From NCBI GenBank assembly GCA_028686345.1, contig JAQUCE010000036.1:1-42219 (forward strand): a stretch of 42,219 nucleotides of DNA, given 5' to 3'. This document shows, piece after piece, positions 5,489 to 42,113 of this stretch. Every line of letters begins with the position of its first letter. Position 1 is the first letter of the stretch. Origin of the DNA: Kiritimatiellia bacterium. GTDB lineage: Bacteria > Verrucomicrobiota > Kiritimatiellia > RFP12 > UBA1067. The notes beneath the pieces were generated by a model. The model saw nothing but the letters and a program-made list of their open reading frames with translations. It did not search any database and had not been told where the DNA came from. Made by a program: the position numbers and the translations under genes.

Positions 5489-5670
5489 GCGCCTTTGACG
5501 AACAAACACCCGGTGTCCGCAATTGCTTCTGAGAAGCAACCCTACACCCCGGGGCGTGCCTTTCAAGAGCCTGTAGCAAAATGCCGCTCGTAGAGCGGCT
5601 ACTACACCGAACGACAACTCTTGCACTCCGCAGTGCAGCGCAGGTGTGGTAGTCGCACTAAAGGCGCGAC
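5489..5670 (+). repeat. Composite intergenic element copy 1 (modules E-B)
   Basis: Module E (5489-5580) begins CGCGCCTTTGACGAACAAAC and includes a small hairpin TTGCTTCTGAGAAGCAA. It is followed by module B, ATGCCGCTCGTAGAGCGGC then TACTACAC (5581-5607), and a decayed second B (about 5643-5670). The same E then B order recurs at 40095-40358 and, inverted, at 25225-25410. No module A follows here. The rest of the 5240-5963 gap holds GCGCATTC-type simple repeats and no gene I can see. Confidence 0.8.
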
Positions 5671-25063: not shown

Positions 25064-25410
25064 GTAGCTCCGATTTCCAATCGGACATGTCCGGTTGGAA
25101 ACCGGAGTTACTGAGGTCGGCTGCGCCGCCGGTTTACGATGGCGGCGACGATGCTGGTGGACGATTTTCAGCATGATCCCAGTCGTCCACCAACATCGTC
25201 GTACAGCATCGTAAACCAATGTCGTCCGTAGATCGACTACTACACATACGCTGCACGGCGCAGTGCAAAGGTTGTCGTTCGGTGTAGTAGCCGCTCTATG
25301 AGCGGCATACTGCAGCAGGCTCATGAAAAGCGCGTCCCGGGATGTAGGGTTGCTTCTCAGAAGCAATTAGCGGCTGCCGGGCGTTTGTTCGCCAAAGGCA
25401 AGTCCTGGGG
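25064..25410 (-). repeat. Composite intergenic element copy 2 (modules C-A-B-E as read on plus)
   Basis: Read on the minus strand this is E-B-A-C. C occupies 25064-25111 (TCCGATTTCCAATCGGA and TCCGGTTGGAAACCGGA hairpins). A is 25131-25217 (87 bp, long hairpin with loop motif GCATGATC). B is about 25229-25308 (GTAGTAGCCGCTCTATGAGC). E is about 25310-25410 (TTGCTTCTCAGAAGCAA). This is the most complete copy in the window. The rest of 24963-25566 includes AAGTTCTAAAGT direct repeats and no gene. Confidence 0.85.
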
Positions 25411-25953: not shown

Positions 25954-28336
25954 TCGGTCGATCTGGAGAGGCGAACTCCTGTTACTTTACGTAGTGTTAG
26001 GCGTCCTGGCGCTGGCCGTGCCGGTGGCTGTGTTGTCGGCTGCAACCGTGGAATACGATCTCACCATTGCCAGGCAGGAGGTGAATTTCACAGGTAAGCC
26101 TGTCCAGGCCATGACCCTCAATGGTCAACTGCCGGGGCCGACCCTGCGTTTCACAGACGGCGACCACGCAATAATCCGCGTCCACAACCAGATGGACGTG
26201 GAAACCTCAATTCACTGGCATGGAATTCTGCTGCCCAACAACATGGACGGCGTACCCTTTGTGACATATCCACCCATTGCACCTGGTACGACATTCACCT
26301 ACGAGTTTGATCTGCGTCAATCCGGCACCTATTGGTATCACAGCCACACGATGCTCCAGGAACAGCGCGGACTGTTCGGTGCGCTGGTCATTGCGCCGAA
26401 GGATAAGGGTGAGTTTGACCGGTTACGGGAGCACGTCGTGATGCTATCCGACTGGACAGACGAGGACGCAAATTCGGTACTCCACACCCTCAAACGCGGC
26501 AGCGAGTGGTATTCAATTAAGAAAGGCAGCGGTCAAAGCGTGCTGGGTGCAGCGCGGCTGGGACTGTTGGGCGCGTATTTCTCAAGGGAGCTTCAACGCA
26601 TGCCGCCCATGGATCTGTCCGATGTGTACTATGATCGCTTTCTGCTCAACGGCGCACCGCACCACGCCCTCGCCGCCAAACCAGGCGAAAAGATCCGGCT
26701 CCGGGTCATCGATGGTTCGGCCTCCACGTTCTTCTATTTGCAGTTTGCCGGCGGCCCGATGCAGGTGATAGCGGCGGATGGGCTGCCGGTGCAACCCTTC
26801 GACGAAGAGCGGCTGCTGATCGCTGTGGCTGAGACGTACGACGTGATCATCACGGTGCCGGATGGAGGAGGCAACCACGAATTTCGAGCGACAGCTCATG
26901 ATGGCTCAGGCCATGCGTCGCTGTGGATTGGTGATGGAACACGGCACGCGGCGCCGGACATTCCGTCCCCCAATCTTTACGACAGCATGGGCGGCCTCTC
27001 GCTCAAACGCGTGTTCGCACTGACCCCGGGCGGTTCGATGGGTATGTCGGGCAACGCTGTACGTGCCAGCAAGTTCGATCAACCGGGCATGAACGGTATG
27101 GAGGGAATGGAGAGTATGGACGGCATGCAGGAGATGGATCATGGCAACATGGTGCCCGATGCCGCTAAAACGAACCATTCCGGGATGGGCGCCGCACCCG
27201 CGATGGAACACGCGAGCCATGAAATGAGCGGCATGATGCACGAAAAGGCGCCGATGGATAAGGGTATGGTTTCCGAAGAAAAAACCACTGCACCCAATAG
27301 CACCTGGCTCGGGCTACTCGCCGCGGATGTGAGTTCTCGAGCCCCGCTGGCCGCTGACAACATGAGCGAGGAACGTCCGGGAGCGCCTTACGACAAGCTG
27401 CGTGCCCTGCAATCCACCGCATTTGATTCGTCAAAACCGATCCGTGAAATCCGACTCACTCTTGATGGCGACATGGAGCGTTACGTCTGGTTTCTGAACA
27501 ACAAGCCGTTGTCCGAGCGTGACGACACTGAAATCAAACGCGGCGAGGTGGTGCGGCTCATCATGATCAACCGCACCATGATGCATCACCCCATGCATCT
27601 TCACGGCCATTTCTTCCGGGTGATCAACGCTCAGGGAGATCATGCGCCGCTCAAACACACCGTGGATGTCGCCCCCATGACGACTACTGTGATTGAGTTT
27701 GCGGCGGATGAGTTCGGCGACTGGTTTTTCCACTGCCACCTGCTCTATCACATGATGAGCGGCATGGCGGCGGTGGTGCATTATCAGGAGTTCGTCCCCG
27801 ATCCGGCCACCGCAGCCGTGCGTCCACTGCTCTACGATGACCCGTTCTACCTGTATGGCCGGGTGGATGCGCTTTCACAGATGTCGCAGGGAACACTGAT
27901 TTACGCCAACTCGCGGCACATCTTCTCTACCGAATGGCAGGCCGGCTGGCAGCACGTGGATGACGTAGAGTGGGAGGTCGTTCCCACCTACGATTATTAC
28001 CTGAACCGTTTTGCCACTCTCTTCACAGGGCTTGACCTTGAAGGCGCGGACGATCACCTCGACAAGCACGAGGGCATCTTCGGCCTGCGCTATCTTCTGC
28101 CGCTCAATATCACATCCCGCGTGTGGGTGGACACAGCCGGTGAGTTCCAATTCGCCGTCGGCAAGCACCTCGAACTCACGCCGCGACTCGCGGTGTTTTC
28201 AGAGGCCGAATATGATACCAAAGAACATTGGGAGATCCGCGCAGGCGCTGGCTATTTGCTTACCAAACACTTTTCCCTCATCGGCCAATGGCACTCCGAT
28301 TTCGGCTGGGGCGGCGGCCTGCGCTGGCAGTTCTGA
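25922..28336 (+). CDS. CopA-type multicopper oxidase fused to a CopB-like outer-membrane barrel domain
   Basis: An 804-aa exported protein. A signal/anchor segment (LLLLYVVLGVLALAVPVAVL) precedes three cupredoxin domains. All copper motifs are present: IHWHGI, WYHSH, HHPMHLHGH and HCHLLYHMMSGM, giving types 1, 2 and 3 copper. A Met/His-rich stretch at about residues 385-470 (MEGMESMDGMQEMDHGNM and others) should bind extra Cu(I), as in PcoA/CopA. The last 170 residues after VPDPATAAVRP alternate like beta-strands and end in a terminal Phe (GGGLRWQF). They resemble CopB/PcoB-type barrels, normally a separate protein. Start: ATG 25922 with GGAGG 5 nt upstream, overlapping the PCD gene by 32 bp. 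Likely oxidises Cu(I) and confers copper tolerance. No copper regulator or exporter is adjacent. Confidence 0.9.
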   Translation: MGKLFSMNWRNRSIWRGELLLLYVVLGVLALAVPVAVLSAATVEYDLTIARQEVNFTGKPVQAMTLNGQLPGPTLRFTDGDHAIIRVHNQMDVETSIHWHGILLPNNMDGVPFVTYPPIAPGTTFTYEFDLRQSGTYWYHSHTMLQEQRGLFGALVIAPKDKGEFDRLREHVVMLSDWTDEDANSVLHTLKRGSEWYSIKKGSGQSVLGAARLGLLGAYFSRELQRMPPMDLSDVYYDRFLLNGAPHHALAAKPGEKIRLRVIDGSASTFFYLQFAGGPMQVIAADGLPVQPFDEERLLIAVAETYDVIITVPDGGGNHEFRATAHDGSGHASLWIGDGTRHAAPDIPSPNLYDSMGGLSLKRVFALTPGGSMGMSGNAVRASKFDQPGMNGMEGMESMDGMQEMDHGNMVPDAAKTNHSGMGAAPAMEHASHEMSGMMHEKAPMDKGMVSEEKTTAPNSTWLGLLAADVSSRAPLAADNMSEERPGAPYDKLRALQSTAFDSSKPIREIRLTLDGDMERYVWFLNNKPLSERDDTEIKRGEVVRLIMINRTMMHHPMHLHGHFFRVINAQGDHAPLKHTVDVAPMTTTVIEFAADEFGDWFFHCHLLYHMMSGMAAVVHYQEFVPDPATAAVRPLLYDDPFYLYGRVDALSQMSQGTLIYANSRHIFSTEWQAGWQHVDDVEWEVVPTYDYYLNRFATLFTGLDLEGADDHLDKHEGIFGLRYLLPLNITSRVWVDTAGEFQFAVGKHLELTPRLAVFSEAEYDTKEHWEIRAGAGYLLTKHFSLIGQWHSDFGWGGGLRWQF

Positions 28337-28414: not shown

Positions 28415-28498
28415 GTAGGTCCGGCTTCCAGCCGGACATGTCCCGACGCAATGAGGAACTACTGAAGTCTGGTTTACGATAGCGGCGACGATGCTGGT
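28415..28498 (-). repeat. Module C plus a half module A at the intron 3' exon
   Basis: C (28415-28462; TCCGGCTTCCAGCCGGA) is followed by ACTGAAGTCTGG and one A arm (28471-28498, beginning GGTTTACGATAGCGGCGACG). The arrangement matches positions 25064-25160 of copy 2. The arm stops exactly where the group II intron begins. Confidence 0.75.
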
Positions 28499-29287
28499 AT
28501 CGCGGTAGGAACGCCCGTTACCGGGTGCCCCCCGCACAGATCCCGGCGTGCGGTTTTCTCGCACCGGGCTCCTCGTTTTGAACTTTCGCTACTTCCGTAT
28601 CAGACAGCAGTTCATTAAATAACACCGTGAAATTCATTTTCACCGCCGTCTCTGTTCGCTATGCCGTGAGCACAGTTTGCATATGTTCTTCGGTCTTTCT
28701 ATTCCGCATATGTTCTGTTCTCCGGCGCGTTCATCACGCCAATCCCTTTGCCGTCCCCGCTGGATGCGAGGACATTTGTATGCGGCTCTCCCGCACTCAG
28801 ACTACTATGAATTGGTCTGACTCCCCTGACTTAAAAACCCATCTGATCCGATTCGATTTCGTTTCTTCACATACCTCGGTTTCCGCCGAGGAGGTGCAGG
28901 GGCCTCCCACGTTGCCCACATATCTCTTACCACATGCCATGCTCTTAGACTCCGACGGCTGTCCATCCCTTGCGCTCCGGTGTTTATTCCAACCCCGGCA
29001 GGTATCCCTGCCAGAAGAACCGTTCTTTTGCGGTATGGACATTGAGGACTTCCGGAACGTTAAAACCGTCGCCCACCGCATCTTGACCATTTCACGAAGC
29101 TGAATTGCTTTAGGGGAATACGGTTCCCCTTACGGCCTATGGTATTCTCTGTGTACGCTTAACCTCCATTGTTCGCACCATACTGCGGTACTCCGCAGGA
29201 GCTCCAACACTCGATACATGACGAGGAGCTTAACCCGCCATGACAGGGACTTTCACCCCGCTAGATATGTGCACCCTCGTGGCGCAC
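28499..29287 (-). mobile_element. ORF-less group II intron (deleted derivative)
   Basis: On the minus strand the element opens with GTGCGCCACGAGGGTGCACA and GGGGTGAAAGTCCC, a typical bacterial group II intron 5' end. It closes with GAGGAGCCCGGTGCGAGAAA, then ACCGCACGCCGGGATCTG (the domain V hairpin with its GAGC start), then GGTAACGGGCGTTCCTACCG and CGAT as domain VI/3' end. At 789 nt it is far short of the 2-3 kb of reverse-transcriptase-bearing introns. Only a leader-like short frame (ending ESDQFIVV) remains where the RT would begin. Mobility would need a maturase in trans. The 5' boundary GTCA|GTGCG is clear. The 3' boundary at 28499 is chosen because joining the exons there restores GTCAACC, the end of module A. 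Confidence 0.8.
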
Positions 29288-29334
29288 TGACGATGCTGTG
29301 CGACGATGTTGGTGGACGATTAGGATCATGCGGG
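29288..29334 (+). repeat. Half module A at the intron 5' exon
   Basis: TGACGATGCTGTGCGACGAT and the following bases, through the loop motif GGATCATGC, match the first half of the A copies at 36881 and 40359. The second arm is missing. This is the upstream exon of the group II intron on the minus strand. No gene is seen in 29335-29519. Confidence 0.8.
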
Positions 29335-29519
29335 AAATCCAAAATCAAAACATATATATTTTATGATTGGTGCTGTTTTGACGCTTAGCCTCTGTACTTC
29401 TTATAAGGCAACACTTTAGCTCAATTTAAGTCCTGATTTAGCTCGCAATTCAAGACACTAATTTCACCTTGTCTTTTGATTCAGAACGTGGGAAAATAAT
29501 CACAACAATGAGGTGGATT

Positions 29520-36850: not shown

Positions 36851-37095
36851 ATGTGTAGTAGTCGCTCTGCGAGCGACATCGGTTAACGATGCTGTGCGAC
36901 GATGTTGGTGGACGATTGGGATCATGCATGGGCTCGTCAACCAGCATCGTCGCCGCCATCGTCAACCAAAGGTGAAACCGATTGTCTGTAGGTCCGATTT
37001 CCAACCGGAAATGTCCGATTGGAAATCGGACCTACGTGACTTGTCCGATTGGAAATCGGACCTACGTGACTTGTCCGATTGGAAATCGGACCTAC
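36851..37095 (+). repeat. Composite intergenic element copy 3 (modules B-A-C, C amplified)
   Basis: B (36851-36880; GTAGTAGTCGCTCTGCGAGC) is followed by A (36881-36967, 87 bp) and C (36988-37035). The half-unit TCCGATTGGAAATCGGACCT is then tandemly repeated with a 30-bp period at 37036-37065 and 37066-37095. The order agrees with the inverted copy at 25064-25410 and shows that C can expand locally. The rest of 36713-37390 has simple GCGCACTCGCGCAC repeats, module D copies and the promoter region of the next gene. Confidence 0.85.
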
Positions 37096-40094: not shown

Positions 40095-40445
40095 GAGCTC
40101 TAAACTCCGCACCTTTGACGAACAAACGCCAGGCATTCGTAAATTGCTTCATCCGCCTTCTTACATACGGCGTGACATGTAGAAGCAACACTACACCCCA
40201 AGGCGCGCCCTTCATGAGCCTGCTGCAAAATGCCGCTCGTAGAGCGGCTACTACACTGAACGACAACCATTGCATTTCACAGTGCAGCGCATGTGTAGTA
40301 GTTGCTCTATGAGCGACATATGCAGCGAATGTGTAGTAATCGCGCTAGCAGCGGCATCGGTTGACGATGCTGTGCGACGATGTTGGTTGATGATTGGGGT
40401 CATGCGGGGGCTCGTCCACCAACAGCGTCGCCGTTATCGTAAACC
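40095..40445 (+). repeat. Composite intergenic element copy 4 (modules E-B-B-A)
   Basis: E (40095-40230) starts CTCCGCACCTTTGACGAACA. Its small TTGCTTC..GAAGCAA hairpin has about 30 extra bases in the loop compared with copies 1 and 2. B follows (ATGCCGCTCGTAGAGCGGCT at 40231) with two further diverged B units (GTAGTAGTTGCTCTATGAGC; GTAGTAATCGCGCTAGCAGC). A is 40359-40445 (87 bp). The mtaB start codon is 54 bp downstream, so the element may lie in its leader. Confidence 0.85.
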
Positions 40446-41852: not shown

Positions 41853-42113
41853 TGTCGCTGGTAGAGCGACTACTACACATGCGCTGCGCTTTGAATTCCA
41901 AGCCGTCATGCAATCCTTGCCGTTCGGTGTAGTAGCCGCTCTACCAGCGGCAGTGCGCTGCGCGTTTCACTTTAAGCTGGTGCAATCCTTGCCGATCGGT
42001 GTAGTAGCCGCTCTGTGAGCGGCATCCGTTGACGATGGTGTGCGACGATGCTGGTTAACGATTCCCGGCATGTTCCAGATCGTCCACCAGTATCGTCGCC
42101 GCTATCGTCAACC
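41853..42113 (+). repeat. Composite intergenic element copy 5 (modules B-B-B-A)
   Basis: Three B units (41853-41880, 41926-41952, 41998-42025) lead into A (42027-42113, 87 bp). The last two B units sit in a 72-bp tandem duplication starting CAATCCTTGCCG. No E or C module is visible. The tail 42114-42219 has no recognisable feature. Confidence 0.85.

Follow-up and report, generated by a model that had tools for sequence, protein, structure and literature searches.

Group IIC introns, the IIC-attC introns among them, are described as inserting beside DNA hairpins with a short EBS1-IBS1 pairing, as in B.h.I1 and S.ma.I2 (PMC7923331, PMC4424553). Group IIB introns beside attC sites have also been reported, and the role of hairpins for them has been raised as a question (PMC7923331). 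According to one survey, insertion right after terminators is seen not only for RT type C but for g6, U1 and U2 as well, while introns of the other types tend to lie more than 1000 bases away (PMC8919778). Among other mobile elements, REP sequences are known targets of insertion sequences (IS), and a survey table lists group II introns at REPs, two of nine in P. putida (PMC1525189). ORF-less introns spread by driver RTs are described from Thermosynechococcus elongatus (PMC2882425). Here, we analyzed a 42,219-nt stretch of a Kiritimatiellia genome (the window, which is contig C60 of a 5.30-Mb assembly of 218 contigs, 90% complete), for which a first-pass annotation had proposed an ORF-less group IIC-like intron seated at the terminus of a repeated intergenic hairpin, module A. 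The intron is best read as belonging to a non-IIC, protein-less lineage that spread into a palindrome peculiar to the species or its close relatives; targets of this kind are known mainly from IIC introns.

The locus resembles each of these systems in part. Like the group IIC and IIC-attC introns B.h.I1 and S.ma.I2, the lineage adjoins DNA hairpins and has a short EBS1-IBS1 pairing, but the window intron combines an AGC triad with an RF02005 domain I, compared with CGC and RF02001/RF01998 in four of four IIC references, and its main target is a dispersed palindrome that is used at either end; the target layout is like that of IIC introns and the ribozyme is not. It shares with the group IIB introns found after attC (UHB.I2, H.ha.F1/F2) a non-IIC class, a position beside a palindrome and the truncation of some copies; those are single cases at attC or attC-like sites (PMC7923331), whereas module A has the order GGTT..AACC, which is not that of attC. 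As with the ORF-less TeI3 introns of T. elongatus, protein-less introns have multiplied within one genome, although T. elongatus has closely related RT-bearing introns and various target sites (PMC2882425), while in the present genome the searches found no close RT and a single repeat family predominates as the target. REP-targeting IS elements are likewise aimed at dispersed palindromes but use DNA transposases (PMC1525189). RT-bearing RF02005-type introns (L155 in gltS, L105 and G065) have the same domain I family, similar domains V and VI and the same EBS1 loop position; unlike them, the window lineage is ORF-less and, in the window, intergenic, whereas those introns encode an RT, and L155 and L105 lie in reading frames without a hairpin. 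A literature search, which covered titles and abstract openings among the matches listed, with subscription papers mostly outside it, returned no report of a lineage of non-IIC introns with a dispersed palindrome as its target. The features of the window to which we refer are as follows.

28499..29287, minus strand: ORF-less group II intron, 789 nt (Rfam RF02005 and RF00029; both ends common to the full-length copy C29).
28499..28573, minus strand: domains V and VI, with AGC triad, unpaired A near the 3' end and terminal GAU (RF00029, 41.8 bits; fold).
28983..29253, minus strand: domain I core, RF02005 (group-II-D1D4-6; 67.5 bits, E 6.8e-17).
29056..29065, minus strand: predicted EBS1 loop, UUUUAACGUU, between the GCGAC and GGAAG strands (the same loop in L155 pairs 6/6 with its exon; G variant in C139 and C162).
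29288..29294, minus strand: predicted IBS1, ATCGTCA, in the upstream exon (sequence pairing).
29288..29339, minus strand: upstream exon, consisting of the right arm and loop of module A without the left arm (comparison with module A copies; fold).
28471..28498, minus strand: downstream exon, module A left arm, inverted (ACCAGCATCGTCGCCGCTATCGTAAACC; comparison with module A copies).
28420..28436, no strand: module C core (TCCGGCTGGAAGCCGGA), often beside the left arm (pattern match).
25131..25217, no strand: unoccupied module A palindrome (25127-25217 folds at -30.1 kcal/mol).
36897..36952, no strand: unoccupied module A, two arm matches (arm pattern match).
40375..40430, no strand: unoccupied module A, two arm matches, diverged (arm pattern match).
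42043..42098, no strand: unoccupied module A, two arm matches, diverged (arm pattern match).

On one side of the intron a plus-strand ORF ends at 28336; on the other, the next plus-strand ORF with 160 aa or more is listed from 29469. Its RF02005 score of 67.5 bits compares with an Rfam gathering score of 49, and the covariance search for domains V and VI detected both with RF00029 at 41.8 bits (E 5.2e-05), slightly above the gathering score of 40. The ends that had been picked out by eye (GTGCGCC at the 5' side, GAGCCCGG in domain V and CCTACCGCGAT at the 3' side) are indeed recognizable; the RNA runs from GUGCG to GAU, as in C29, and satisfies the group II consensus of a GUGYG start and an RAY end (PMC7923331). 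In the fold, domain V (GAGCCCGG...CCGGGATC) has a two-base bulge and domain VI has an unpaired A near the 3' end, and folding of the complete intron gave a minimum free energy 3.3 standard deviations below that of 20 shuffles. With the RT of a relative as the query, tblastn gave no meaningful match in domain IV or anywhere else in the intron (best E 2.7), so that its description as ORF-less holds. The coordinates and anatomy of the first observation are sound; the IIC label and the hairpin in the window copy are not.

A DNA search with the intron identified seven copies of the lineage in the assembly (nine rows at E ≤1e-22, with two rows each for C43 and C32; the remaining 20 rows had E >0.006). 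Two copies, the window (C60) and C29, are full length and identical as aligned across approximately the first 600 nt. The other five are truncated at the 3' side and have no domains V and VI: C139 retains nucleotides 1-336, C162 1-316 and C163 1-216, and C43 and C32 have a common internal gap at ~126-292 and end at 657 and 370, respectively. All seven begin with GTG(C/A)GCC at exactly the same base, as expected from intron insertion. The pattern in the truncated copies (C139, C162, C163, C43 and C32), an exact 5' end and no 3' end, is the reverse of what incomplete cDNA is expected to yield. Their 3' breaks (L043 3559 on, L044 3435, L046 263) run into other sequence, which in C162 and C163 consists of TTAGGGACAGGCACTGATTTT-type repeats. 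The break in C139 leads into a frame that, by eye, we take to resemble a REP-associated transposase, and C139 is absent from the Y1_Tnp matches. A further RF02005 intron at ~23800-24470 of C106 (L130), with a degenerate domain V, no RT match in the fetched stretch and a 16-bp hairpin beside it, was kept outside the count of seven because its 5' end is uncertain.

Alignment of 33 unoccupied copies defined module A as an imperfect palindrome of ~87 nt, GGTTGACGAT..CGACGATGCTGGTGGACGA-loop-TCGTCCACCAACATCGTCG..ATCGTCAACC, and a consensus typed from these copies gave a DNA fold of -35.0 kcal/mol. With at most two mismatches allowed, the arm pattern has 371 matches in the genome against one for the reversed-pattern control. 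With the 84-nt module A of C162 as a DNA query, 40 of the 349 initial candidates were scored, and every one of these 40 matched over 78 or more of the 84 positions. Across 60 genomes of the order, module A was found in its own genome, with two matches at 72-76% in a genus-mate and a single 31-nt match in a further genome; its expansion therefore looks peculiar to the species or near kin. Since the palindrome is symmetrical, ATCGTCA/ACC (the slash marks the junction) occurs at both ends, one per strand. Two known kinds of element were considered for module A and rejected. By inspection its order is GGTTGAC ... GTCAACC on either strand, and the arm order GGTT..AACC is not that of attC sites, RYYYACC ... 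GTTRRRY (PMC7923331). CGTC-tagged REPs are described with a stem of 8-9 bp and a loop of 4-5 nt (PMC3733652), and the consensus fold of module A has more than 20 pairs and a 14-nt loop. As a link to RAYTs was also considered, we looked near the seven Y1_Tnp matches of the genome, and module A arms were present in none of the seven fetched stretches.

In five of the seven copies (C60, C29, C139, C162 and C163), the upstream exon is module A ending in ATCGTCA and the intron begins exactly after it. This agrees with the original proposals that the target is a dispersed intergenic element and, from comparison with the module A copies, that the window exon is module A sequence ending in GTCA. The C29 intron is located at the opposite (left) end of module A, on the other strand, and C43 and C32 lie at sequences unrelated to module A. 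We folded the 70 nt upstream of each intron as DNA and compared them with a background of 4000 windows drawn at random from the contigs of the window, C43 and C32. The upstream sequences of C162 (-29.2 kcal/mol), C43 (-19.3), C163 (-18.5), C29 (-17.8) and C32 (-16.8) each fall in the lowest 2% of the background, 0.7% of which is as low as C43 and 1.9% as low as C32. At -3.2 kcal/mol, the window copy is equaled or exceeded in strength by 94% of the background, and C139, at -2.8 kcal/mol, has no hairpin either, because in both the left arm is missing upstream. Among the 33 unoccupied module A copies, 23 fold at -15 kcal/mol or below, so that right arms lacking a left arm form a regular minority. 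The placement at a hairpin terminus is therefore correct for the family, five of whose seven copies follow strong hairpins, but not for the window copy.

It had further been suggested that removal of the intron restores the module A terminus, and this stands in part. GTCA/ACC occurs at the corresponding point in 7 of the 33 aligned unoccupied copies, so the sequence produced by removal does exist at real termini; but the downstream exon of the window is the inverted left arm, not the usual continuation of module A, and a search for the exact unoccupied junction that allowed up to three mismatches returned four partial matches and none exact. An inversion of the loop, right arm and intron after insertion would explain the inverted left arm. 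However, right arms that lack a left arm and have a similar AT-rich flank occur elsewhere, which makes it equally likely that the intron entered a module that was already scrambled.

We take the EBS1 loop of RF02005 introns to lie between GCGAC and GGAAG in domain I. As an outside check, the loop of the E. coli plasmid intron L155 at this position, ACUGUU, pairs at all six positions with its exon end, AACAGU. In C139 and C162 the predicted loop is UUUUGACGUU, of which UGACG pairs 5/5 with CGUCA and UGACGUU 6/7, and in the window and C29 it is UUUUAACGUU, of which UAACG pairs 4/5 and the seven-position form 5/7; C163, C43 and C32 have lost the loop. The idea that UAACGUU alone fits the exons of C43 and C32 was discarded, as both forms pair 7/7 when wobbles are counted (two and one, respectively, for UAACGUU; three and two for UGACGUU). 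The word ATCGTCA occurs 31 times in the 157,658 bases of the genome that were examined, and 9 of the 31 are module A ends, which gives P ~0.002 for five out of five by chance; this value is conservative, since the background includes the window's own site and hence a larger module A share. Module A or its structure thus seems to add something beyond the word, on small numbers.

Hairpin, then short IBS1, is also the layout of IIC targets (PMC7923331), and the annotation had pointed to IIC introns. As IIC references we took four introns whose RT, along a 183-residue segment, has 66-72% identity to GsI-IIC; all four match RF02001 and RF01998 and have ACCGCC in domain V, and none has RF02005 among its listed matches, from which three overlapping, lower-scoring clan matches had been omitted. 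The window intron has AGC in domain V (GAGCCCGG), and RF02005 is its only listed domain I match; its RF02005-type relatives L135 and L137 also match RF01998, at a sub-threshold 32 bits. In an RT tree of 19 rows, a branch with 100/100 support separates the five IIC rows from the RTs of the RF02005-type introns L105, L154, L155 and G065, together with the RT on C5. The domain I model, the AGC instead of CGC triad and the position of the RT-bearing relatives all argue against IIC membership, and a group IIC intron that uses module A as a terminator- or attC-like target is highly improbable.

On balance, we consider it probable that this non-IIC group II intron, which is ORF-less and has five of its seven copies at the ends of a ~87-nt dispersed palindrome, was inserted by reverse splicing guided by the predicted EBS1-IBS1 pairing and probably also by the DNA hairpin. 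The intron RNA would reverse-splice into module A ends, where the predicted pairing would set the insertion base and the hairpin itself would probably be read; the copies would have arisen by retrotransposition, with the RT of another intron, perhaps of the C5/C169 lineage, acting in trans. The strong hairpins ahead of five of the seven copies and the five insertions at module A ends, one of them at the opposite end on the other strand, support this reading. Several observations speak against it: the EBS1 of the window and C29 mismatches two of seven IBS1 positions and UGACGUU one, five of the seven copies have no domains V and VI, the assembly yielded no RT of this lineage, the candidate helpers match RF02005 at 44-49 bits, slightly below the cut-off, and distant RT-bearing relatives lie in genes without hairpins. 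As the window and C139 have no upstream hairpin, the hairpin may not have been needed for insertion. That absence and the complementarity of EBS1, which alone explains the exact insertion base, would equally suit an intron that targets only the short word ATCGTCA, with module A merely a common place for it and the hairpin irrelevant, and the distant relatives at plain sites in genes fit this as well. We regard it as rather unlikely, because only 9 of the 31 words are module A ends (P ~0.002) and both copies outside module A, C43 and C32, follow strong hairpins that few background windows (0.7% and 1.9%) can match. A single capture of the intron by a module A copy, followed by spread through recombination or mobility of the repeat and not by retrotransposition, is improbable. 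The identity of the window and C29 introns over ~600 nt and the mosaic, often recombined state of the modules would be expected from such a history, but not the use of the opposite end and the other strand by the C29 intron, the flanks that vary between copies or the unrelated hairpins at C43 and C32.

A more far-reaching version of insertion by reverse splicing is possible, though doubtful: a non-class-C, protein-less lineage would have its own target specificity for both ends of a host-peculiar palindrome, read as IBS1 plus folded hairpin; a one-base change of EBS1, UGACG to UAACG, would tilt it toward other hairpins; and an expanding selfish repeat would offer a renewable safe harbor to a second selfish element. 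The window copy may in principle still be able to splice, but with one EBS1 mismatch to CGUCA and no upstream hairpin, it is probably settled rather than active as a donor.

A DNA search, an RT profile and a protein search found no RT of the window lineage in the 90%-complete assembly, from which we infer spread by a helper RT in trans. The nearest RT in the genome, on C5, is 40% identical to the G065 RT, and by eye the C169 RT is of the C5 lineage. C169, C102 and C216 have a common 5' region and RF02005 scores of 48.6, 46.5 and 44.4 bits, slightly below the cut-off of 49. Of the 94 genomes searched, 5 have DNA matches to the intron; one is its own, and in the others the matches are to the 3' end only. 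RF02005 was detected at E ≤1e-5 in 21 of 159 genomes, in 16 of them above the cut-off. Relatives at unrelated sites, which had been named as evidence against the proposal, give a mixed picture: C43 and C32 are at unrelated sequences but after strong hairpins, whereas the distant RT-bearing relatives L155, in the annotated gltS, and L105 (2454-4431), in a frame that is Rhs-like by eye, have no hairpin upstream. G087 has an ORF-less relative of 690 nt that also lies after a hairpin (-12.6 kcal/mol), but its EBS1 loop, by eye, does not fit the exon, and it was not used as support.

If the preferred reading, insertion by reverse splicing at module A ends, is true, a non-IIC lineage is aimed at a repeat family and hairpin targeting is not bound to the IIC ribozyme. 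ORF-less introns could then also multiply in a bacterium without a close RT present. Two EBS1 variants and hundreds of palindrome arms in a single genome would constitute a natural experiment.

Several minor observations concern other introns and repeats. Domains V and VI with a CGC triad, as in the IIC references, are present on C89 and C6 of the same genome (L058 1501-1577, L060 1501-1571), where these CGC-type introns coexist with at least two other intron lineages. Another RT-bearing relative, at L095 401, likewise lies in a frame that is Rhs-like by eye. Six RF02005-type introns of order relatives (L131, L134, L135, L136, L139 and L144; the first four start near 1460) directly follow an ATG that in most cases has an AAAGG-type stretch before it, which looks like insertion immediately after start codons. 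Two introns stand head to tail at L133 (G100:C236, 1412-1742), with a few bases between domain V of the first and domain I of the second. Within the window, five consecutive copies of a TTAGGGACAGGCACTRATTTC-type repeat lie at 172-332 with a spacing of 29-40 nt. Short hairpin-like repeats that start with GTA(G/A) (GTAGTCGCTCTACCAGCGACAT type, up to four mismatches) occur at 5581, 25219, 25287, 36858, 40230, 40298, 40336, 41852 and 41932; they resemble GTAG-tagged REPs, and several are close to module A.
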